This document shows, in pieces, positions 10,792 to 62,659 of a DNA stretch of 64,000 bases. Source of the stretch: Bryopsis sp. KO-2023 (lineage: Eukaryota > Chlorophyta > Ulvophyceae > Bryopsidales > Bryopsidaceae); the NCBI GenBank assembly GCA_030272585.1, contig BSYQ01000013.1, positions 1,426,001-1,490,000 on the forward strand, written 5' to 3'. Position numbers and translations under genes: made by a program. Numbering within the stretch: the first letter of the stretch is position 1; every line of letters starts with the position of its first letter. The notes below the pieces were generated by a model. It saw only the letters and a program-made list of their open reading frames with translations, did not search any database and was not told the DNA's origin.

Positions 10792-11074
10792 CAAACAAAC
10801 AAATAAACAAACAAACATCAATTACATTGTTTAGGAGAGATATTCTCCTATTACAATGATCAGTAAAAATCAAATGTGACCATGTGTATCTTTTTTGCAT
10901 TCCCTTCGAGCAACTCCAGAATGCGAATAAGATGGCTGTTCGTTTCCCGCCATCTTATGCGGAAGTTGGCTGGATGAGAAAATACACATGGTCACATTTG
11001 GTTTTTTACTGATCCTTGTAGGAGACTGTCTCTCCTACACAATGTAATTGATGTTTGTTTGTTTGTTTGTTGAT
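10792..11074. mobile_element. Palindromic MITE-like element with CAAAC-repeat termini
   Basis: Two arms of about 95 bases are inverted copies of each other: 10792-10890 and 10978-11074. Each arm runs from (CAAA)n through ATCAATTACATTG, a GGAGAGA...TCTCC mini-hairpin and ATCAGTAAAAA to TGTGACCATGTGTAT. They flank an ~87-base non-repeated loop. The same outer terminus recurs at about 423-462 and 16640-16783, so it is a family rather than one accident. No open frame inside. A target-site duplication was not clear, so assignment to a transposon superfamily is open. Confidence 0.75.
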
Positions 11075-30439: not shown

Positions 30440-32751
30440 CGCATTTCTTGTTGGCGTTCTACGTGGATGAGACGGCAGCAAAAAAAAAAAAAAAAACAGT
30501 CCGATTTGAAGGATGCGATCAAGTGCGACGCCCGCTCGTGGGTACCTTTTGAGTGATTTCTGTTGGGCAGGTGGTGGTGTTGTAATGATATCTTGGGGAA
30601 GCGCCATGTGGATACATATTCAGAATCCGTTCAGCCCAACTGTTGCAAGCGGCTGTCGTCCTCGTCATGGCTTTTGGGCGGCCAGTTGGGCCGTCAGTGA
30701 ATCTCACCTGCACACGTAAGTTTGTGCATGTCAATCAGCATGACGCCGTGGTGTTTTTCCCGTCCCTAGTTTGGTCAGCGGAGAGAAGGTGGCATCGCAA
30801 GAGGCAATACAGGTGGTGACTGCACCCCCGAAAGCGCACTTTCCGCAACGAATTTATTATGGAATGGAGCGGACATCGCAATGGGGCAGACTTCGAGCAC
30901 ACCCCACAGGTAGACAGACCCCAGTCGCTCCTCTCGAAGATTGTGTTTGTTGCGGCTGGTCATAGCATAACGTTCGTGTGGAGTCTGGAGTGTAAAAAAG
31001 GGTCGAAACTGGAGCGAAGCTGCCAGAGACTTGGTCGAGGCCCGTCTCACTGAAAGGAATATCCCATCAGAATATCTGTCATTGATATACCTTGGTTACT
31101 GCAGTAGAATTTGTGTGGATGAGTTGCTGAAATATCAAAAAGTATTGTCAGGAGATCCTATCAGTCTTTATTGCTCAGTTCGGTAGAACGTGTGACTGAA
31201 TCTGTGAAAACCTGTGGTTCCCCGATTTTCAGCAGCTGCTGCCGCCTCTTGAGTATCCAAACAGTTGTCCTCATTTTTGTGATTTTTGTGTATCATTGAA
31301 CAATAACCCCTGATTTTTTTTCTAAGTATTTTTTTTCAACACTCAATTTTCCTGGTGATCCCCACTGAGGACAGGTGTTTGGAGAAACGCCTGTTATAAA
31401 AGGTTAAAAGGTTGTGGAAATGTGAAAGTGGAACTTGTGGAAAATTGAGTATCAAAAATTCACCAAAGCTTGGCCACCATTCATTAACAAGGCCTGCTTG
31501 GTGCATCCCTTTCTGTTGGGAGTTTGAACTTCGGATATTTTTTTGCCTGTCGTGGTTGTCAGCTAACGGTTTCGCCAAAAAAAAAAAACATCACCTGTTG
31601 GAGCCTTTAAAAAACCCGGAATTGGTTTGCTGGATGCGGATTCAGATGGCGATTTGGACATTTGTAAATGATTAATATAATAATTATGTCCCCACCGAAG
31701 ATCGCCAAGCCAATCAACTGTTTCTAAATCATCTGAACGCAGCTAGCTGCAAGACTGGAGTTTCAGGAGGCCAGCGAAATTCTGGGGTTCGGATGTAAGG
31801 AAAAGACAACAGCAGTGTGGTGTTTGGGGATATTTCTGTTCCATAAAATGATACATCAGACTACGAGCCTTCCTCCTGCATGTGAGCGGGGATGGGCTGG
31901 ATCGGAATCTTTTCCGGTGCCTTTTCCTGTGGTCCACCCAATGCAGAGGAATTCGATGTAAACGTTTTCTCTTATGAAACAAAAAGCCCTATGAAGTTTC
32001 AGGGAAGCTTCTGAGTCGATTGTGTGCAGGTTTTTTTTACGACGACGGACAATTCCTCTCAAGTGTCGCTCGGACATGTCTTCTCAAAAAAGTTTTCAGA
32101 AGTTCTCTGCTTGGGGAAAGATGGGTTTTTAAAAATCATTTCTCAATATCAACTTAGTTGCACAACAGAATGGGGAGAAGGGTTTTTTGTCAGTAATACC
32201 ACCCAGGATGATGTGAGGGTTTTCTTTCTGGGAATTCTTTGTGCATTTGTAACAGTTTGGGGGGCATCACTTTACAAATCACAAATTTGTGTTTGAATGG
32301 AGGCCTGTTTCTGTCTACCAGTCTGACACGTTTCGAGAGCCCTGTGATCACAAATGTCACATCAAGAGATTTTACATTTCGAAGGCAGCAGTGAGAAACG
32401 CCTTGAGAGGGACATTTTAAATCCACACTGTTGCTCTCTCCATCCACAAGCCAAATCTGCATGCAAATTGGACGGGGCACATTGTTTTCTTTCACATCAT
32501 CCCACCAAAGCAAAACAAAAATTGACATACGGAAGGCATACACACACATTTTTCATTTTATGTTTTTTTGGAAGAAATTTTATTGTTCGTGGCTACGCAT
32601 GCAGTATCCTTGTGTGTGTGTGTGTGTTGAAAAACAGAACATCATCAATTGATGGCTGATTATATTTCGGGACTTTGGTTGGTCTACAACAGACCACCAT
32701 ATTCCAGAAAGCGTTCTTCACCCAGGTTAGTTTCTGTTTAAGGAATCATAC
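30440..32751. other. Gene-poor region before the inverted duplication
   Basis: Several open frames of 60-120 codons occur on both strands, but none carries a recognised motif or joins through splice sites. Composition is mixed, less homopolymeric than other gaps, so remnants of old elements are possible. Nothing else supported. Confidence 0.4.
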
Positions 32752-33124
32752 CTTTGAAATTATTCCAGGCTCCAGCCCCACCCTTGCAAAACAAATCTAT
32801 CGAGTCTGAAAAACATGTAGACTGTCTTACGAAGCTCGAAATGAATCTCTTCGAAAATATTCAATTTTTTTTTCCTCAGTAGGATTCCACAACGATACAA
32901 GAAATAGTAAGATTCATTTCACAGAAATAGTTGGTATTGATTTAAATATATTCAGAGCAATTTGGGAATCGAACCCTTTTTTGTGCCCTTATCATGACAC
33001 ACTGCTCTTTTTTTTTGTTGAAGGAGAAAAAACCTTGCGGTAAAAAAACTCCAAAAAAAACACCCCCCCAAAAAAGAAAAAAACCCACTACCCAAATTTT
33101 TTTTTCAATTTTTTTTTTTTTCAA

Positions 33125-33500
33125 AACCCACCCTTAACACACCCACAGAAAAATCTAACACATGCACTCCCCTCAATTTTTTATTTTTTTTTCGTTCTTT
33201 TTATATTTATATTTTTTTTTTCTTTGTTTTTCTCTTTTTTTAAGCCCCACCCCCACCCAACACACCCACAGAAAATTAGCAAAATCTAACACATGCACTC
33301 CCCTCAAATTTTTATATTTTTTTCATCCTTTATATATTTTTTTTCTTTGTTTGTCTTTTCTTTTTCTAAACCCCACCCCCACCCAACACACCCACAGAAA
33401 TATTGAAAAGACTAACACATGCACACTCCCCTCAAATTTTTGTTTTTTTTTTCATTCTTTTTCTTTTTTTCTTTGCTTTTCTTTTTTTAACCCCCCCTCT
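33125..33500 (+). repeat. ~125-bp tandem repeat, three to four copies (left arm)
   Basis: Units contain AACACACCCACAGAAA, then TAACACATGCACTCCCCTCAA, then a long T-rich stretch. Copies start near 33136, 33258 and 33390. The same array is present in inverted form at 40100-40440 with different copy spacing. It lies just downstream of the left coiled-coil gene. Confidence 0.85.
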
Positions 33501-33526
33501 CCCTCCCCCCCCATCCCAAGCAATTT

Positions 33527-34739
33527 TTACCCGTAATCGGGACTGATACACCGTTGCTGCTCGTCATCGTGCTCCTCCTCCTTACTAGCCAAATAGGCGG
33601 AAAAACCCTCTGTCAGACGTCGTTGAGTTGCAGCCGCCTCTTGATGCTGATCGTATTCATTGGGTCCCTGATTCCAGAAAATCAAACAAGTGAGGGGCAC
33701 GCACTTCCCTTCCAGGTTTTTTTACCCTAGAAATCTTTTGAAATCTTTTGTCTGTTGATGTTTTTTTTTCTTGAAATTGAATCCAACCGATCGCTCCTCA
33801 CAAGTAGAAAATATAAAATTAGAGAGAGAGAGAGAACAAATTCTAGATTCTTGATTTTTCCCCCTCTTGGCATGCAGTTTTAACTTTTTCATTTTGATGC
33901 TTTGCCACATTTCACGGTACCGCTGAGAAAGTAAAGGGTAGCCTTGGTGCGGGTTTTGGATTCTCCTCCACAGCCTGTTGCTGTAATTTTTTTTCTTGAT
34001 TCTCCAACCTGTTCTGCCTGTGGAAAAATAACTCCTGGTCAAAGTTTGGTATTACAGAAATCAATCTGTGGAAAAGACAACACACTGAATCAGGTGTGTC
34101 GTCACAGTGTTGGTTTTTTTTTGCGAGTTTTCTTTAATCAGCAGCTTCACTTTTCCTTCCTGTCTTACCATTCTTGCAGAGATTCCCTTTCCTGGGCCAA
34201 CTGACCCGACATGGTGATTCTCATTTCTTCCATATCGGCTTTGATTTCCTCCTGAGGAGAAAAAGAAGAAAATCAGGTGATCAAAATCAAGGCGAATCTA
34301 TCACAGTTGGAATGCAAAAATAGGATGTTGTACCTGTTCACGGTAGAGTTTCATTTGTCTTGTTTTCAAAAGGGTTTCCTGTTTTTTAAGCTGCTCCGCC
34401 CAACTCCTGAGCTCCTGTTCTTTCGTGGCAAGCGGATTGCCCCTTCTCTGGAAGAAACCAAGAACCAAACACACTCAATTTCTTGAAAATTGTTTTAATG
34501 ATTCACCACCATGAAATAATTAAGACCAGCTCAGATAAAAAAATTCCACCTGTCTCCACCAGGTGGCCAGGCAGCACTCAAGTACCGTCCAGCCAAGTGC
34601 CACGAGTATCAGGTGGATATTCCTGGAGGAAAAAAAATTAAAGAGAACACTCCTTCAGCGATAGGAAGACGATATTTCTTTTATTTTGAAGCAGGGAAAG
34701 GTCTCACGTGTGTAGAATTGCGAACATGGTCGCAAGCAT
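33527..34739 (-). CDS. Membrane-anchored coiled-coil protein, copy A
   Basis: Six exons: 34739-34708, 34622-34550, 34447-34334, 34251-34169, 34017-33921 and 33667-33527; 179 aa, closing in frame. Residues ~12-32 form one transmembrane helix (HLILVALGWTVLECCLATWW), followed by a charged heptad-rich region of ~85 residues (KEQELRSWAEQLKKQE, EEMRITMSGQLAQERESL). A Pro-rich break follows (NPKPAPRLPFTF), then a second helical Glu/Gln-rich segment ending CISPDYG. Exon lengths are identical to copy B except three extra bases (one Asp) in the last exon. No known family recognised; a scaffold or tether role is a guess from topology. Both copies are intact, so both may be expressed. Confidence 0.82.
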
Positions 34740-35350
34740 TTTTTCCAGTTCTCCGTTCCAAGCCAAAAAAGAGTGCTCCAAAGGTCCTTGAAACAGAAAG
34801 CGGGTGAACGCCTTCAGCGACGACTTCGCCTAAGTGTGGTCGGCTCGACGGTTAGAGCAGTTGGTTTCTGTCTTTCCATGGGTTTCTGTCATCAACAGCA
34901 AGGGGCGTGCGGGAGTCGAACCCGAAGCAGGCGACCGCGCCACCCCATCTTTGAACCAACCCCCCGTCTCAGTCCAAACTCCAAACTCCAAAACCAAACG
35001 CCACCGCTGTCTCGATGCGTTTGCGCTGGAGGAGATGGAGGTCCACAGCGACGACCAGGGACGTCGCCGCCACCCAAAAAAACCCTCGCAATTCTCTCGA
35101 AAACGAGATTGCGAGAGCATAGAAAGAAGAAAAAGAGAGAGCTCTCGAAAGAGATATAGTGCACGACTGAAGAGAGTCCAAGATGGCGTTCGTGCTCGTA
35201 CCAAACCGAGTTGGCGGCGGCGGTAAGAAAGCATGGCAACTTATCCTTGAAGGGCGCAGGTTCTGCTCGTTCTTCTCCTCGCGCGCTATAACTCGGGGAT
35301 ACGGCGAATGGCTTCTGGGGCTGGACTACTCTTCAGGTGATAAGTCATAT

Positions 35351-35437
35351 CCTCGGCAGTATCGGTCGATGGGCATCCCTATCGTTTCAATAATTATTGA
35401 AACGACGGGGATGCCCCATCGATCGATGCTGCCAAGA
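35351..35437. repeat. Imperfect ~87-bp palindrome at the inner end of the left arm
   Basis: CCTCGGCAGTATCGGTCGAT and its near reverse complement (ATCGATCGATGCTGCCAAG) flank a second inverted pair, CGTTTCAATAATTATTGAAACG. The two halves agree at about nine bases in ten. The counterpart lies at 38007-38088. The sequence could fold into one long hairpin or be a small foldback element. Confidence 0.85.
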
Positions 35438-35642
35438 TCTTGAGAAACCATGGACCGAATCCAGAGATGTGGAGGCTACCATTATTTGAGGGTTTGCCAC
35501 TGGACAGCTTTTCCCTACACACACCCCGCTCAAAAAAACATTGAGGGGCAAGGAACAAAAGCACAAAGATAGAGTAGGAATCCAGTTACAGAATGTGTTG
35601 TTCAATGGCGATGGTTAGGGAACTGGATGAGAGGTTGCGTGT

Positions 35643-35674
35643 AAGTGGGACATGCTAATTAGCATGTCCCACTT
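35643..35674. other. Perfect 32-bp palindrome
   Basis: AAGTGGGACATGCTAA is followed without a loop by its exact reverse complement. Such a long perfect palindrome is very unlikely by chance. A second perfect one of 18 bp, GGTGCATTGCAATGCACC, lies at 35873-35890. Confidence 0.95.
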
Positions 35675-36143
35675 CTAATTGGGAAGGATAATCTGGTGCA
35701 GTGTACACATGTGGTGCCCTGGATGGGTTGGCCATCCTCGCCCCATTATGTGCTGCATTTCTAGCCATGGATGGGGTTCTTGGATTCAGTGGCTCTTCCA
35801 TCGATTTTGCTGGGGTGGGGGTGATGTTTCTGCCCAAATCACCCTCCTCACGGAAAGCCAGCAGTCGAATTGGGTGCATTGCAATGCACCATAACATCCA
35901 TTATAAGGTAATTACCTGTGGAAAACAGTTATCTTAAACTGCAACATTTGGTTGGTGATGTTCTCTGCCTTTCTTATTTGTGTGCTGAGGTATACTGCCA
36001 TGTTCTGGACCGATCGATGCTATGACTCATGGGTGTGGGCTGGATTGCCGACAGACAGAAACCTCATCAGATTCTTAAAAAGGGGTTCAAGACACTCTCT
36101 TCTCCAACCTCCCAACACCATCCACTCCACATCATAATCCAAC

Positions 36144-36335
36144 CTAATCCTGAAGGGCCGTATACTCCAGCCGCTTTCTTTTTCTCGCCTCCTCTCTAAC
36201 ACTGTCTTTCAAAAACAAAGTTATGATGCCCCCTACCATAGACATTGCCCCAACCACCCAGATCACTGACTTAAGGGACCCAGACACATCCGCAACAAAT
36301 CCAGCATTCATGGGTGAATATTGTAAACTGTAGAT
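36144..36335 (-). CDS. C-terminal exon of a possible MFS-type transporter (partial)
   Basis: An exon opened by a TTCTTCACAAG acceptor encodes 63 residues ending in a stop. It contains SPMNAGFVADVSGSLK, a hydrophobic helix (SVIWVVGAMSMVGGIITLFL) and a basic cytoplasmic end (KDSVREEARKRKRLEY). This is the layout of the last helix and tail of a major facilitator transporter. Upstream exons were not recognised within the spacer, so it may be a fragment left by the duplication, or the tail of a gene whose other exons I missed. Confidence 0.35.
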   Translation of the reverse strand: MYSLQYSPMNAGFVADVSGSLKSVIWVVGAMSMVGGIITLFLKDSVREEARKRKRLEYTALQD

Positions 36336-38006
36336 CTTGTGAAGAAAAAGGGGGGAAAGGAAGCAACATTTCCGAATGAGCGCTGTGGTTGTATCTTCAC
36401 GGGTAGATGTAAAGCAAATCTCCAGGCAGCCCGCATCTCGAATGGTGGTGATATCAATCAATCGATTGTGATTGTGATAATACATTTTGGATGACCAATT
36501 TCGAGGAAGCCTTTGTTTTAGCGATGACTAATCTCCCCATGAGTTTCGAAAACGTCGGGTTATGCATGCCGATCCCAGTCCTTTCAACTCGTTGCATGTT
36601 TTTTGCGCCTTTTTGATTTGATGCTTGTGGAGCCGTTTCACAACTCTCTGGGATTAAAAAAAAACCTGAATTAATCACTTGAAAGAAAAAGAATGAAAAT
36701 AATGAAAGAGAAAAAAAAGAGATAATGTTCATCATTAAATCAATGTGAATAATCAGCGGATCGAAACTTGCTGAATTCTCTGTTGTTTTGGATCTAAAAA
36801 CAGATTCTGAAAAAATGAAAACCATGGAAAAGAGTTTTAGTTTTCGACTGACCTCTTCTAATTTGCGCATGGAAGCTTCCATGGGCTTTCTTTCTTTGAT
36901 GGAAAAACAGCACCCTGGCTTTTATAATATCTTCTTACTTCAGCTCATTGTTTCCAAATAAAAGAACTTGCAGCCATGATGTAAACTTCATGCTGTACAA
37001 AAAAACAGAAAACTAGATTAAGAAAATCATTTTTCCATTTTTTTTAAAACAAAAGGGAAGGAGGAAAAAAAAAATCACATGGATAACAAAAACGGGGATG
37101 GAAAAAATCCTCAAAAGCACCAGGATAATAAAAGCAAAAAAAACATATAGTGTTCAGAAAGAGATCCCCTCGAGGTTTTCAGAAAAAATCAAACCAAATC
37201 AGCATTAAAAAAATTAGTGATCAGCCTATGATGCACAAGCAATTCACCTCACGGACTGACATGATGACTCCATCCTTGTCCCTGGATTTGATCAAGACCT
37301 TCATTGCTACCCATTGATTATATTTCGAATTTCCCCCCCCCCCCGATGCCCCAACACCTGGACATTTATTTCTTGGTAAAAGATGAAAGGACCCTTTTTG
37401 CTTGGACTTAGATTCCGCTGCTTGTGTTGCTTTTTGAGTCCCCCCTCCCCCACTGAGTGTTCTCTGGAAGTGTTTGTCTCAGTCATGGCCTACGCATCGA
37501 CAACATACCCAAAAAAAAGATTCAAAGACATGTCGTGTGGCCGTTTTTTGCATCGAGACAATTCTCTCATTGCATCATTTCTTTTGTTTCTTGTTGGAGT
37601 TAAAACAAAGAAAAAAAAACATTGAGTTTTGTGGTAGGGTGTTGTTATACCTTATGTTGCACGAGATCACAACCCCGAATCTCAATGGGGACAAGTGATA
37701 GGTCCGATCATGGTTTTTTCAAGTTGTGCTTGAAAAGTTTCCCCACATGAGGATATTCACCAACCCTTGGTTTGCTTGTCCAATCGATTGCAATCAGGAA
37801 GTCAGTAAAGAAGACACCACAGAAATAGTCAATTGAATTTTTCAAGTGGGTTGCCTTTCACCAGTGCTGAAGAAACGTTTGCAGTTACATTGTGTTCATG
37901 TTCTCGTTTTTCCATGTTTTTCTGGATCCTTTTTTTCAGCTGGACGGTCGAGCACCCCTGGTAGCCTCCACACAATGGTTTCGTGGCTGTCCATGGTTTC
38001 TCAACA

Positions 38007-38088
38007 CCTCGGCAGTATCGATCGATGGGGCAGCCCGGTCGTTTCAATGTTTATTTGAACGACGGGGATACCCCCTACACTGCCGAGG
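38007..38088. repeat. Palindrome at the inner end of the right arm
   Basis: Counterpart of 35351-35437: CTCGGCAGTATCGATCGATG paired with the near complement ending ACTGCCGAG, with an inner pair TCGTTTCAA/TTTGAACGA. More worn than the left copy. Confidence 0.8.
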
Positions 38089-38290
38089 TTATAACCTATC
38101 ACTTGGAAAATAGCACAGTCGTAGCAGCCACCCACCACAGAGTAAATAGGCGTATTTAACCCGCGCGAATAGAAGGGCGTGCCCGTCCTGCTTGTAATGC
38201 TTCCTTGCCGCCGCCGCCAACTCGGTTTGGTACGAGCATGAACGCCATCTTGGACTCTCTTCAGTCTCTTGCCCCTCTGTGATTTCGAGA

Positions 38291-38291
38291 G

Positions 38292-38365
<74 letters not shown>
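38291..38365 (+). repeat. (CT)n microsatellite
   Basis: About 35 CT units with two T interruptions, in the 5' flank of coiled-coil copy B. The left arm has only a short GAGAGAGAG run at the matching place, so it expanded after the duplication. It creates a long but meaningless Arg-Glu antisense open frame. Confidence 0.95.
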
Positions 38366-38369
<4 letters not shown>

Positions 38370-38756
38370 CTTTCTGTGCTCTCGCAATCTCGTTTTCGAG
38401 AGCAGGACAAGGCTGTTTTTTTGGTGGCGGCGACGTCCCTGGTCGTCGCTGTGGACCTCCATCTCCTCCAGCGCAAACGCATCGAGACAGCGGTGGCGTT
38501 TGGTTTTGGAGTTTGGAGTTTGGACTGAGACGGGGGGTTGGTTCAAAGATGGGGTGGCGCGGTCGCCTGATTCGGGTTCGACTCCCGCACGCCCCTTGCT
38601 GTTGATGACAGAAACCCATGGAAAGACAGAAGCCAACTGCTCCAACCGTCGAGCCGGCCGCACTTAGGCGAACTCGTCGCTGATGCTGTTCACCCGCTTT
38701 CTGTTTCAAGGACTTTTGGAGCACTTTGGAGTCCAACGGTCTGGAACGGAGACAAA

Positions 38757-39690
38757 ATGCTCGCCACCGCATTCGCAATTCTCGAAACGTGAGACCTTTT
38801 TTTTTTTTTTTTTTTTTAAACATCGGGTGAGACCTTGCCTTGCTCAGAAAGTCTTCAATGTCGGACTGTGTTGAAATTTTCTATTTTCTCTCTCCAGCCA
38901 CATGCATGTGATACTCTTCACTGCAGTCTGGACACTACTCGAGTGCTGCCTGACCACCTGGTGGAAACAGGTGGAATTTGTTTATCTGAGCTGGTCTTAA
39001 TTATTTCATGCTGGTGAATCATAAAAGCAATTTCCAAGAAATTGAGTGTGTTTGGTTCTTGGTTTCTTCCAGAGAAGGGGCAATTCGCTTGCCACAAAAG
39101 AACAGGAACTGAGGAGTTGGGCGAAGAAGCTCAGAAACCAGGAAACCCTTCTGAAAACAAGGCAAATGAGACTCCACCATGAACAGGTACATCCTATTTT
39201 TTGCATTCCAACTGAGATAGATTAACCTTGATCTTGATAACCTGATTTCTGATTTCTTCTTTTTCTCCTCAGGAGAAAATCAAAGCCAATATGGAAGAAA
39301 TGAGAATCACCATGTCGGGTCAGTTGGCCCAGGAAAGGGAATCTCTGCAAGAATGGTAAGACAGGAAGGAAAAGTGAAGCTGCTGATTAAAGAAAACTCG
39401 CCAAAAAAAACCAACACTGTGACGACACACCTGATTCAGTGTGTCGTCTTTTCTTTAGTTTGATTTATGTGGAACTGAAACCTTGAAAAGGAATTTTTTC
39501 TTTTCCACAGGCAAATTATGTTGGAGAACCGGGAAAAGGAACTGGAGCGAAAGGCTGTGGAGGAGAATCCAAAACCCGCACCAAGGCTACCCTTTACTTT
39601 CTCAGCGGTACGGTGAAATGTGGCAAAGCATCGAAATGAAAAAGTTAAAACTGCAGGCCAAGAGGGGGAAAAATCAAGAATCTAGAATTT

Positions 39691-39730
<40 letters not shown>

Positions 39731-40013
39731 TTTATATTTTTTACTTGTGAGGAGCGATCGGTTGGATTGAATTCAAGGAAAAACATCAACAGAACTTTGA
39801 TTCAAAATATATTTGGGGTAAAAAAACCTGGAAGGAAAGTGCGTGCCCCTCACTTGTTTGATTTTCTGGAATCAGGGACCCGATGAATGCGATCGGCATC
39901 AAGAGGCGGCTGCAACTCAACGACGTCTGACAGAGGGGTTTTCCGCCTATTTGGCTAGTAAGGAGGAGGAGCTTGATGAGCAGCAACGGTGTATCAGTCC
40001 CGATTACGGGTAA
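38757..40013 (+). CDS. Membrane-anchored coiled-coil protein, copy B
   Basis: Six exons: 38757-38788, 38898-38970, 39073-39186, 39273-39355, 39511-39607 and 39876-40013; 178 aa, closing in frame. Same plan as copy A: a transmembrane helix (HVILFTAVWTLLECCL) near the N-terminus, heptad-rich coil (ELRSWAKKLRNQETLL), Pro-rich hinge and a C-terminal helix ending CISPDYG. Copy A is transcribed away from it (head-to-head across the spacer). Compared with copy A, exon 2 differs at about a quarter of sites, exon 4 at 2 of 83, and exon 5 switches from 14 differences in 41 bases to none in 56. Confidence 0.82.
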
Positions 40014-40099
40014 AAATTGCTTGGGATGGGGGGGGAGGGAGAGGGGGGGGGTAAAAAAAGAAAAGCAAAGAAAAAAAGAAAAAGATTGAAAAAAAAAAA

Positions 40100-40440
40100 A
40101 AAAATTTTGAGGGGAGTGTGCATGTGTTAGCTTTTGCTAATTTTCTGTGGGTGTCTTGGGTGTGGGTGGGGTTTAGAAAAAAAAAATGAAAAAAAAAAAA
40201 AAAAAAAATTGAGGGGAGTGCATGTGTTAGTTTTTGGAAATTATCTGGGTGGGTGGGGGTTCAAAAAATGAAAAAAGAAAAAAAAAAAAAATGAAAAAAA
40301 AAAAAATGAAAAAATGAAAAAATGAAAAAAAAAAAGATTTGAGGGGAGTGCATGTGTTAGTTTTTTCAGTGAAAAAATAGGGGTAGTGGGTTTTTTTCTT
40401 TTTTTTTGGGGGGTGTTTTTTTTTGGAGTTTTTTTACCGC
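40100..40440 (-). repeat. Tandem repeat, right-arm counterpart
   Basis: Inverted counterpart of 33125-33500: units with GAGGGGAGTGCATGTGTTAG and A-rich stretches near 40109, 40210 and 40340. Spacing and A-run lengths differ from the left arm, showing independent slippage. Confidence 0.8.
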
Positions 40441-40742
40441 AAGGTTTTTTCTCCGTCAACAAAAAAAAAGAGCATTGTGTCATGATGGGGCCAACTAAAC
40501 AGGGTTCGATTCCCAAATTGCTCTGAATATATTTAAATCAATACCAACTATTTCTGTGAAAATAATTAACACTTCAATTGTTGTCGAATGATTCTTACTA
40601 AGATTCGACTCGAATCTTAGTAAGTAAATTGAATATTTTTGAAGAGATTTGATTCGAGCTTCGTAAGACAGCCACCATGTTTTTCAGACTCGATAGATTT
40701 TTTTTTGCAAGGATGGGGCTGGAGCCTGGAATAATTTCAGAG

Positions 40743-41260
40743 GTATGGCTTTCTTGATGAGAAGAAGTCGTGTGCTGCTGTTCAATATGAATGGTGCGAG
40801 TCTTTCAATGAGGATATATGTATATATATATATATATATATACTTCACACAGCCATCATCATTTGTGGCTTCCATAAAATCAGGATTTGGCTTCGGAACT
40901 TAGCAAACCGAAGAAACACGCAACCATTGTATGTATATTTCCAATGTTTTGAACTGATGCTTTTTTTTCTCTTTCTGGTTGGCATTCGGGCTACCCCCTC
41001 AGGTTTCCATAAGATTTTTCCACTGAAAATTATGAAAAAAAAAGAAGAATTCAATCGGTGAAACGGAGTCGCAGCATGTTACAACTCTTTGGACATGGAC
41101 CTTCATATGATAAATCATCAACAAAAATTTATCAAAAAAAAAACACACACACTCAACCTTACATCACCTCAAAATCTGTGCCTATTCTAAAAAACCCTGA
41201 CAATCTCAACCCCCCCCCCCCCTTCTTCCCCACACTCTCTCAGTTCAGTTGAAGAAAAAT
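40743..41260. other. Intergenic, DDX1 3' flank
   Basis: A TA microsatellite lies near 40818-40841. A TGTAA in DDX1 sense lies at 41159-41163, about 100 bases after the stop. No gene seen. Confidence 0.45.
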
Positions 41261-60301: not shown

Positions 60302-62404
60302 TTAAAAATATATATCAAGTGTTGCAATAAAGAAAACCTGTTTTTGCTTCCTATTTTCCTGCAAGCATCCCGCTCCGTTGGATTTTTACCAGGGACTTTT
60401 TCGAAGAAAAAACTCCGTCCAGATCTTAGTGAAGTTTTTTTTCATTATTATTTTTTTTTTGTCTTTCGATTTCTTAGGAGGGAGAGTGCACTCGACATTT
60501 CCAGAAGAAAAAAAAAAAAAAACAAGAAGGGAAAAATGTTTTGATATCCTTAGGCTTGCTTTTATTTTTTGGTGGGTAGTTGAAGTAAAAGAAAAAATAA
60601 TGGTGAATATGTTTGTAAGCTCTTCGAGCGGATTTTAGAAAGAAAAGAAAAGGGATGAAAAGAAAAGAAAAAATTGGTAGCTTTGCACATTTACAGCGAG
60701 TCTTTTTCTTTTTTTTTTAATTTATGGGTTGAGCATCATGAGCATAACATGGATTTGGGTTGTGTACGCAGTATATTTTTTTCCCCCAAAAAAAAAGAAA
60801 GAAAAGAAAAGAAACAGGGAGGAAACAACAAAGCATGTTGCATTTTTCATCTTAGAACGATAATTTACGAAACAGACAGAATTTGTAGGGCACGCGTGTA
60901 TTCGTTTTTCCCCCCACTCCTGCAGGGTTCGCAAGAAAAAAAAAAAAGGAAATCAACAGGAACTCACAAAAAAACAAGGGGAAAAAAAAGAAAGAAAAAA
61001 GGAAACGTTGAAAGGAAAAAAGCAAGCGTATCTTTTTGGGAGGGTTTGAGAGATTTGTCTGTAAACAAAAAAAAAAAGAGAAAAAGAAAGGGGGAGGGGT
61101 ACTGAGGGAAAATGGTTTTTAATTTTCAAATGTCTGGTTAAGGATGAGATCAGATGGATGTCAGGATTCACATGGATCCATGTGGAGTTCTATCTGCATG
61201 GGTGCTTAGTTAGGGAAGGGTTCATATGGACGAAAAAGAGAGTTATCAAGCAGCTGCGAGAATGAACATTAAATGGCATTCGAGGGGGTCAGACTGGGAG
61301 GGGAGGTAGTGTGAGATTGTGTTTTGTGCGTTCGTGTGCTTTTAAGTTGCAATAGCATCTTGGGTTTGCAAAAAAAATCAAAAAAAAAATTCCCTCCTAC
61401 AGAGGGAGAAACGAAATATTAATAAATTTCCTTTTTTTTCTTTTTCCATGTCCCTCGCCACTTGCAGCCCCAACTGAGAAACAACGCTGCAAGAAATAAA
61501 AGAAAGCTAATAACACAGAGGTATCTTGCGGAGGGGGGGTGGGGTGGGGAAAGGAGTGGAGTCTTTGAAAGCAGATGTGGGGAGGGTTGTGTTTTTTTGG
61601 GATGCAGATATTTGTTTAGTTGTTTTTCTTTTTTTTTTGGGGCAGCACTTGGTATATCAAAGAAACGCGATCCTTTGGTTCGATTGAGGATTTTTTTCCC
61701 CCTCAATAAAATTGGAAGTGATATATTTTTCGGGGCAGGGGGCGGGGGAAGGGAACAAAAAATATCAAATTTAATATCAAATAAATTCTGTATATGAGCG
61801 TAAAAAAAATCTGAAAAAAAAAACACCAACTCCCGACCCCCCGGGGCATCTCCCTCGTTTCTGAAGTCAGTTGTGAACTTGCTCCAACAAGTAGCCTTTC
61901 GAGAAGCATGCCAGCCGAGAAAACCCCCACAAGAACCAAATATTACCCCCAGTCCTTCTTTCTCAATCAACTACATTGCTCAGCTGTTGCAGCTCGGTTC
62001 GCCATGCTGGAGCAATGAGGAGATCATGTTGGTGGTGCCAAACATATTCCAAAAGCTACATGCGCAACAAACAAAATAATGAATGGATGGTAAAGCTCAT
62101 TCAAGCTCTTTTGTGATTCCTGGGAATATTCCATCTGTGGAATGTTACATGAATTACATGAATTTAATTTCGTTTTGGGGGAAAAAAACGAAATTAAGTT
62201 CCAACGAAATTAAATTCCAACGAAATTTAATTCCAACGAAATTTAATTCAACAATATTTTCTTCCAACGAAATTTTCTTCTTTTAGAGTGTGAAATGTGT
62301 TTGATCCAGAGATGCAACTCCAACACATCCAAGCAATCAAAAATCTAAATGCTGACCATACGTGATACATATATATGTGTTATTAACTTTTAGTTCATGA
62401 GTTT
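59078..62404. other. Low-complexity intergenic DNA
   Basis: A-, T- and G-rich runs, a (GT)n microsatellite at about 59241-59272, (TA)n at about 60271-60301, and a 16-bp perfect palindrome CACATGGATCCATGTG near 61170. No gene recognised. The retroelement that follows may start within the last few hundred bases. Confidence 0.55.
62164..62277 (+). repeat. Hairpin followed by a 16-bp tandem repeat
   Basis: TTAATTTCGTTTT (62164-62176) pairs with AAAACGAAATTAA (62185-62197). Five units of about 16 bp follow directly, consensus TTCCAACGAAATTTAA (62199-62277), whose ACGAAATT core is the same as in the hairpin arm. It lies ~360 bases before the Gag-like ORF and could be part of the retroelement's left end. 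Confidence 0.85.
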
Positions 62405-62659
62405 ATGGACTGGATCGGTGCTGGGCGGGTTTTGCTGGCACAGTCAGCCGCGGCTGACGCATTTGTGGCAGCGCTTGCATTTTGTGTTTGGGGCAGCGTT
62501 CGCCTTGTTCTCGATTGTGGCTACTTCTGTGGCTTTAAAAGGCGTTGTCCTTATGTTCTCGCCACCTTTTTGCTTTTTGCAAAAACCGACCTTCACTCCC
62601 GTGAACGGATCGGCTCCTTGAAGGAGATCTTTACCCCCGAATGGAAAACGCTTTGCTAG
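62405..62659 (+). CDS. Small ORF before the retroelement Gag, uncertain
   Basis: 84 codons beginning MDWIGAGRVLL, overlapping the Gag-like start by 19 bases in another frame. Shows no recognised motif. Two other plus-strand frames are also fairly open here, so coding is unproven; it may be leader sequence of the element. Confidence 0.25.
   Translation: MDWIGAGRVLLAQSAAADAFVAALAFCVWGSVRLVLDCGYFCGFKRRCPYVLATFLLFAKTDLHSRERIGSLKEIFTPEWKTLC

Follow-up and report, generated by a model that had tools for sequence, protein, structure and literature searches.

Patchy divergence in an inverted gene pair of the green alga Bryopsis sp. KO-2023 and its reading as recurrent ectopic gene conversion

Two inverted copies of one gene and their relatives

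We analyzed a stretch of 64,000 nucleotides from the green alga Bryopsis sp. KO-2023 (Ulvophyceae, Bryopsidales; NCBI GenBank assembly GCA_030272585.1; 91,088,769 bases in 28 contigs), hereafter the window, which corresponds to C13:1426001-1490000 (C13 being contig BSYQ01000013.1). Positions given without a contig are those of the window. Near its middle lie two inverted arms, L and R, each carrying a copy of the same gene (Table 1), and the divergence between the two copies changes abruptly along their length. The arms show 243 mismatches in 2581 aligned columns (90.6% identity). An initial annotation of this DNA had described an 8-kb inverted duplication with head-to-head six-exon genes around a spacer of roughly 2.5 kb. 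Genes, arrangement and spacer are all present and the arms are indeed inverted, but each arm measures only about 2.7-2.8 kb, 8 kb being the size of the entire structure, spacer included.

Gene models, for these and for all other copies, are predictions from open frames and GT/AG sites. In both arms, the frame is open across six exons separated by GT/AG introns, and exon lengths (32/73/114/83/97/141 in L and 32/73/114/83/97/138 in R) are equal save for one codon, as previously claimed, the single-codon gap being located in exon 6. When the genome was searched with a portion of arm L, a third copy came up about 34 kb from gene L, just beyond the left edge of the window. This copy, T, lies at C13:1424018-1425424; more distant copies are found on contigs C7 and C3. 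T has the exon lengths of L and, like the L protein, ends in SPDYG. In the C7 and C3 copies, exons 2 to 5 have the same lengths and exon 6 contains an early stop; exon 1 of the C7 copy is shorter.

The predicted L protein has a hydrophobic N-terminus (according to hydropathy) and a charged body which, by eye, looks like a coiled coil. The ratio of nonsynonymous to synonymous divergence (dN/dS) is 0.33 between L and R and ranges from 0.24 to 0.45 in all ten pairs among L, R, T, C7 and C3, which points to purifying selection. Pfam scans of L and T returned only matches below the cut-off, a five-copy profile found nothing under E 0.3 among PDB sequences, and PHROGs gave nothing better than E 0.0076. 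Searches of these three resources thus yielded no convincing homologue and no function for the gene product. A near-identity plasmid search with window 38001-40100 gave no match. By eye, we also considered a divergent gene with its start in the conserved upstream block, and rejected it, as its start codon is present only in L and R among the five aligned copies.

Table 1. Features of the inverted pair (window positions; HMM, hidden Markov model)
Feature	Position	Strand	Remarks
Arm L	32747..35481	- (gene on minus strand)	aligned to arm R (40747-37959); inner end approximate
Arm R	37959..40747	+ (gene on plus strand)	aligned to arm L; inner end approximate
Gene copy L	33527..34739	-	exons 34739-34708, 34622-34550, 34447-34334, 34251-34169, 34017-33921, 33667-33527; 179 aa
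Gene copy R	38757..40013	+	exons 38757-38788, 38898-38970, 39073-39186, 39273-39355, 39511-39607, 39876-40013; 178 aa
Young tract upstream of gene	34866..35086		1 mismatch in 220 columns (R 38631-38410); three-state HMM
Young tract, end of intron 3, exon 4, first part of intron 4	34080..34278		3 mismatches in 199 columns (R 39444-39240); HMM
Young tract, 3' part of exon 5, start of intron 5	33751..33976		7 mismatches in 222 columns (R 39793-39552); HMM
Old island, exon 1, intron 1, most of exon 2	34580..34762		38 mismatches in 167 columns (R 38940-38730); HMM
Old island, end of intron 4, first 41 bases of exon 5	33977..34079		29 mismatches in 103 columns (R 39551-39445); HMM
5' tRNA-like box, copy L	34912..34944	-	A-box-like and B-box-like motifs, without anticodon arm
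5' tRNA-like box, copy R	38553..38585	+	same pattern
3' tRNA-like box, copy L	32955..33007	-	GGGTTCGATTCCC with closing stem; fold; ends by eye
3' tRNA-like box, copy R	40470..40523	+	fold; ends by eye
Spacer between arms	35482..37958		from arm alignment
Probable 1.6-kb inversion within spacer	36112..37723		from blastn table
Imperfect palindrome upstream of copy L	35351..35436		also at other loci; ends by eye
Same palindrome upstream of copy R	38007..38088		ends by eye

Divergence between L and R is patchy

The number of differences between L and R varies widely among exons (8/32, 19/73, 14/114, 2/83, 14/97 and 6/138 for exons 1 to 6, respectively). The initial annotation had given about a quarter of sites for exon 2 and 2 of 83 for exon 4, and had reported an abrupt switch within exon 5. 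Our counts agree: all 14 differences in exon 5 fall in its first 41 bases (34017-33977), while the next 56 (33976-33921) are identical. Over the 1247 gene columns, the 157 mismatches are strongly clustered, with a variance among 50-column bins of 43.2 instead of the 5.3 expected, a value reached in none of 20000 permutations; the longest identical run spans 113 columns (P = 5e-5).

A two-state HMM applied to the arms places 9 switches, delimiting ten alternating segments, and uniform divergence along the arms, the observation named at the outset as speaking against a mosaic, is disfavored by 70 units of the Bayesian information criterion (BIC). Per-segment divergence jumps between 2-5% and 26-30%, with some segments at 7-13%. 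A three-state HMM, whose BIC gain is 35 as against 70 for the two-state model, was used solely for describing the young tracts. In that model, low-divergence segments cover 125-318 columns, and the young tracts span exon-intron borders.

A third copy and two outgroups separate young tracts from old islands

Across the ten segments, L and R differ by 2-30% and L and T by 2-37%, and distances of L, R and T to the C7 or C3 copies lie within 15-42%. Segment 34090-34289 is the most informative: L and R differ there by 2%, but L-T and R-T distances are 21% and 24%, and distances to C7 and C3 are 23-29%. In the adjoining island (33977-34089), L-R divergence reaches 26%, and L and R are at 22-26% from C7 and C3. 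As outgroup distances are no lower in 34090-34289 than in this island, the low segment was recently copied rather than slowly evolving, and the island is old rather than fast; in this young tract, L-R similarity goes beyond what constraint accounts for. A second island (34550-34760) shows 30% divergence between L and R and 30-33% between either of them and C7 or C3. In both islands, L and R are thus as divergent from each other as from the C7 and C3 copies, which implies that the pair is old and merely looks young. If the islands have kept their initial divergence, L and R separated from each other at about the time when they separated from the C7 and C3 copies.

T is itself a mosaic: it resembles L and R closely in its 3' half, and its 5' half is old. 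Its relationship with the pair changes at L 34088/34079 (change-point test over the range 33400-34549, P<=0.0002). Counts of the site patterns LR|T, LT|R and RT|L are 117:16:18 in 34090-34600, 7:17:12 in 33960-34089 and 14:14:11 in 33527-33959, the three copies being nearly star-like in the last interval. The contrast between the first two intervals is highly significant (LR|T versus the rest, Fisher's test, P = 1.4e-10), and noncoding sites alone yield the same shift (55:5:7 in 34090-34549 versus 16:16:19 in 33527-34089, P = 2.4e-8). Trees of 34090-34760 require L and R to group together, the other two topologies being rejected by the approximately unbiased (AU) test (8e-5 and 5e-4). In the 3' half, L with T is the favored grouping, with bootstrap values of 95 (33380-34060) and 69 (33527-33976). 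Tree tests are decisive for the 5' half only.

The initial annotation had proposed GENECONV for detecting conversion. We used our own re-implementation of this kind of test instead of the original program, with 475 polymorphic sites, five sequences and 5000 permutations. Under strict matching, a 38-site L-R run at 34234-34123 (P = 4e-4) and a 23-site L-T run at 33707-33615 (P = 2e-4) survive correction for ten pairs; R-T (0.007) and the control pair C7-C3 (0.016 uncorrected) are not significant after this correction. When mismatches are allowed (500 permutations), L-R, L-T and R-T all reach the floor of 0.002, and C7-C3 stands at 0.008 uncorrected. When the test is limited to L, R and T, strict matching gives P values of 4e-4 for L-R, 0.0028 for L-T and 0.0012 for R-T, the latter corresponding to 7 sites upstream of the gene. 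Conversion between the arms, as initially claimed, is therefore supported by the GENECONV-style test, the change-point, the site patterns and the outgroup control, but its restriction to the two arms is not, since T is also mosaic.

Recurrent ectopic gene conversion as the probable explanation, and its alternatives

We conclude, with a probability of about 0.85, that the locus is an old inverted paralogue pair which has been repeatedly patched by ectopic gene conversion, and that T also takes part in the exchange. Breaks in one copy would be repaired using another copy as template, so that tracts of a few hundred bases are copied. Islands at 26-30% divergence would then never have been converted, or not recently, and would keep the true age of the pair, whereas segments at 0-3% would have been converted last and those at 8-13% earlier. 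From the mosaic we infer non-crossover conversion as the mechanism, as well as the direction and the number of events. Conversion of an inverted paralogue pair is a known kind of process; less usual here are the many copies carried by a single chromosome and the two tRNA-like boxes that flank every unit (see below).

Several observations weigh against this conclusion. Outgroup distances are also lower in two other young tracts (15-19% in 34840-35090, where T-L and T-R distances are 10% and 8%, and 15-21% in 33820-33976), so that part of the contrast there may come from constraint. For the 3' half, trees do not reject the grouping of L with R (AU 0.066 for 33380-34060 and 0.42 for 33527-33976). 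The T mosaic has one main breakpoint, and a chimeric duplication could thus explain T. The run in the control pair C7-C3 suggests that some heterogeneity is general. Finally, the evidence comes from a single assembled genome.

The alternative that fares best, while still unlikely, is that the arms or T were assembled from different parental copies when the duplication arose, by template switching or unequal crossing-over, and that conversion played no part afterwards. It would account for the main switch of T between an old 5' half and a young 3' half, and it fits with the rearrangement seen in the spacer (see below), but a single event does not produce the 9 L-R switches of the two-state HMM, nor low segments of differing ages. 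Moreover, among the copies compared (T, C7 and C3), none comes close to the island sequences. Even less probable is uneven constraint or mutation rate, in which L and R have one divergence age, with conserved and fast segments. Coding constraint does exist, as the dN/dS between L and R indicates; the exon 1-2 segment is divergent (30-43%) in nine of the ten pairs, the exception being C7-C3 (13%), and the reduced outgroup distances in two young segments go the same way. Against this stand the large distances of segment 34090-34289 to T, C7 and C3, the shift recovered from noncoding sites, and the location of the exon 5 switch, which falls away from the exon border. An assembly artefact is scarcely credible: false inverted duplicates are a known type of long-read artefact, but they are expected to have near-identical arms, whereas 243 of 2581 columns differ here, both frames are open, and spacer and flanks have relatives elsewhere in the assembly.

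Under recurrent conversion, members of a gene family that is concentrated on one chromosome in a probably coenocytic green alga would have been homogenized in patches. Overall identity would date such duplicates far too young, and unconverted islands would provide a better age.

tRNA-like boxes and the wider family

Each copy is flanked by an upstream and a downstream box, whose likeness to the A and B boxes of tRNA genes is judged from the consensus of the latter. Rfam at gathering scores has no match in the window and ARAGORN found no tRNA; these boxes are thus not recognized tRNAs. Counts of boxes and units in the genome searches below are lower bounds. The upstream-box pattern has 6 exact matches in the 91-Mb assembly, all six upstream of family members, and its reversed control has none. 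With up to 3 mismatches, there are 27 matches and again none for the control; ten of them are located at family units with 0-1 mismatch, and the unit on C10 has 2 mismatches. A diverged form of the upstream box, with 2-3 mismatches, occurs in groups at C7:4472203-4740178, C4:577820-1067713 and C9:3286565-3311949. The 211 bases around the 3' box of copy L match 15 places in the genome.

In at least 11 units, the upstream box and the downstream box point the same way, with 2.0-2.8 kb between them save for one seemingly split unit: T, L, R, C7:738k, C3:7.53M, C13:1493.6k, C13:897.7k, C13:851.5k (3' part at 875k), C3:5.66M, C5:6.57M and C10:1.82M (downstream box known only as a 64-base match). Six of these 11 units are located on C13, which represents 3,137,694 of the 91,088,769 bases (3.4% of the assembly). 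As nearby duplicates are not independent, we give no probability for this concentration.

The DNA of the C13:1493.6k copy matches C13:897.7k, C13:851.5k with 875k, C3:5.66M, C10:1.82M and C5:6.57M, and this more distant subfamily seems to follow the same unit plan. The link relies mainly on shared boxes and exon-like blocks within one alignment. Three of its C13 places encode an SPDYG-like end (SPDYG or SPNYG), and protein matches alone are weak (E 0.06-1.2). C13:851498-853607 and C13:874985-875656 match neighboring parts of the query (1-2056 and 2061-2668); the C13:851.5k unit thus seems to have been split by an insertion of about 21 kb of other sequence.

It is conceivable, though we consider it a long shot, that the family consists of "boxed" units whose putative boxes could bind TFIIIC-like factors and cluster the copies in the nucleus, thereby promoting conversion, or else mark a spreading unit. 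In any case, the shared boxes offer a handle for finding further members and for testing whether boxes guide exchange. Among the papers listed by our searches on the Bryopsis genome and sex, and on gene conversion in green algae and UV sex systems, we recognized none describing this family.

Spacer, flanks and other observations

In the spacer, the block at 36112-36314 corresponds to one that, at C7:737k, C13:763k and C13:1496k, immediately precedes the R-type promoter; here it is reversed and displaced (blastn). From 37724 onward, the spacer resumes the forward sense relative to these three loci. Block order and orientation make an inversion of 36112-37723 probable. The imperfect palindrome upstream of L and R, about 85 bp long, has matches on both strands on C7, C9, C14, C4 and elsewhere on C13, and may be a small foldback element. 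Immediately past the 3' border common to the units, L (32500-32747) and T (C13:1426021-1426110) share 44 more bases (79.5%), and R instead shares about 170 more bases with C13:750k, which is a hint on which copy gave rise to which.

Elsewhere in the window, positions 10798-11071 form a self-inverted repeat of 270 bp that is 76% identical to itself in reverse complement; its ends also have a match (about 94%) at C13:1874916-1875009. Positions 62373-62577 recur with 99.5% identity at C13:1492524-1492728, 2.5 kb past the right end of the window. C13:1-4000 is the start of a tandem 5S rRNA gene array (20 matches in 4 kb), and no telomere repeat was found in the first 600 bases of this contig; C1 starts with CCCTAAA telomere repeats. 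Two further contigs are probably organellar: C28 (91,672 bp), with an rbcL gene, green-type by look, in its first 3 kb, is probably the plastid genome, and C27 (356,152 bp), with a partial bacterial-type small-subunit rRNA in its first 3 kb, is probably the mitochondrial genome.

Comparison with known systems

The initial annotation had likened the pair to palindromes of sex chromosomes. In mammals, Y-chromosome palindromes have arms of tens of kilobases to megabases with more than 99.9% identity, and they are located on a sex chromosome. They have in common with the Bryopsis pair inverted arms and conversion, but our arms are short (2.7 kb), 90.6% identical and contain old islands, so that the analogy is not supported.

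Tract lengths can be compared with those of interlocus conversion in yeast and rodents, whose quoted averages are mostly 200-300 bp (PMC3924818). The low-divergence segments described above are of similar size. Yeast and rodent tracts are, however, measured events, unlike ours, which are deduced from one genome.

In Drosophila, the palindromic pairs Hsp70Aa/Hsp70Ab and Amy-p/Amy-d are homogenized by ectopic gene conversion (PMC3924832). Like them, L and R are linked, inverted and intact paralogues homogenized by conversion. The two systems differ in that the Bryopsis gene has six short exons and its young tracts cross introns, whereas concerted evolution of amylase genes is described as restricted to coding sequence (PMC3924832). 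In addition, old islands remain inside the gene and a third copy joins in Bryopsis, where the pattern is known from one genome. The pattern resembles these Drosophila pairs more than it does sex-chromosome palindromes (PMC3924832).

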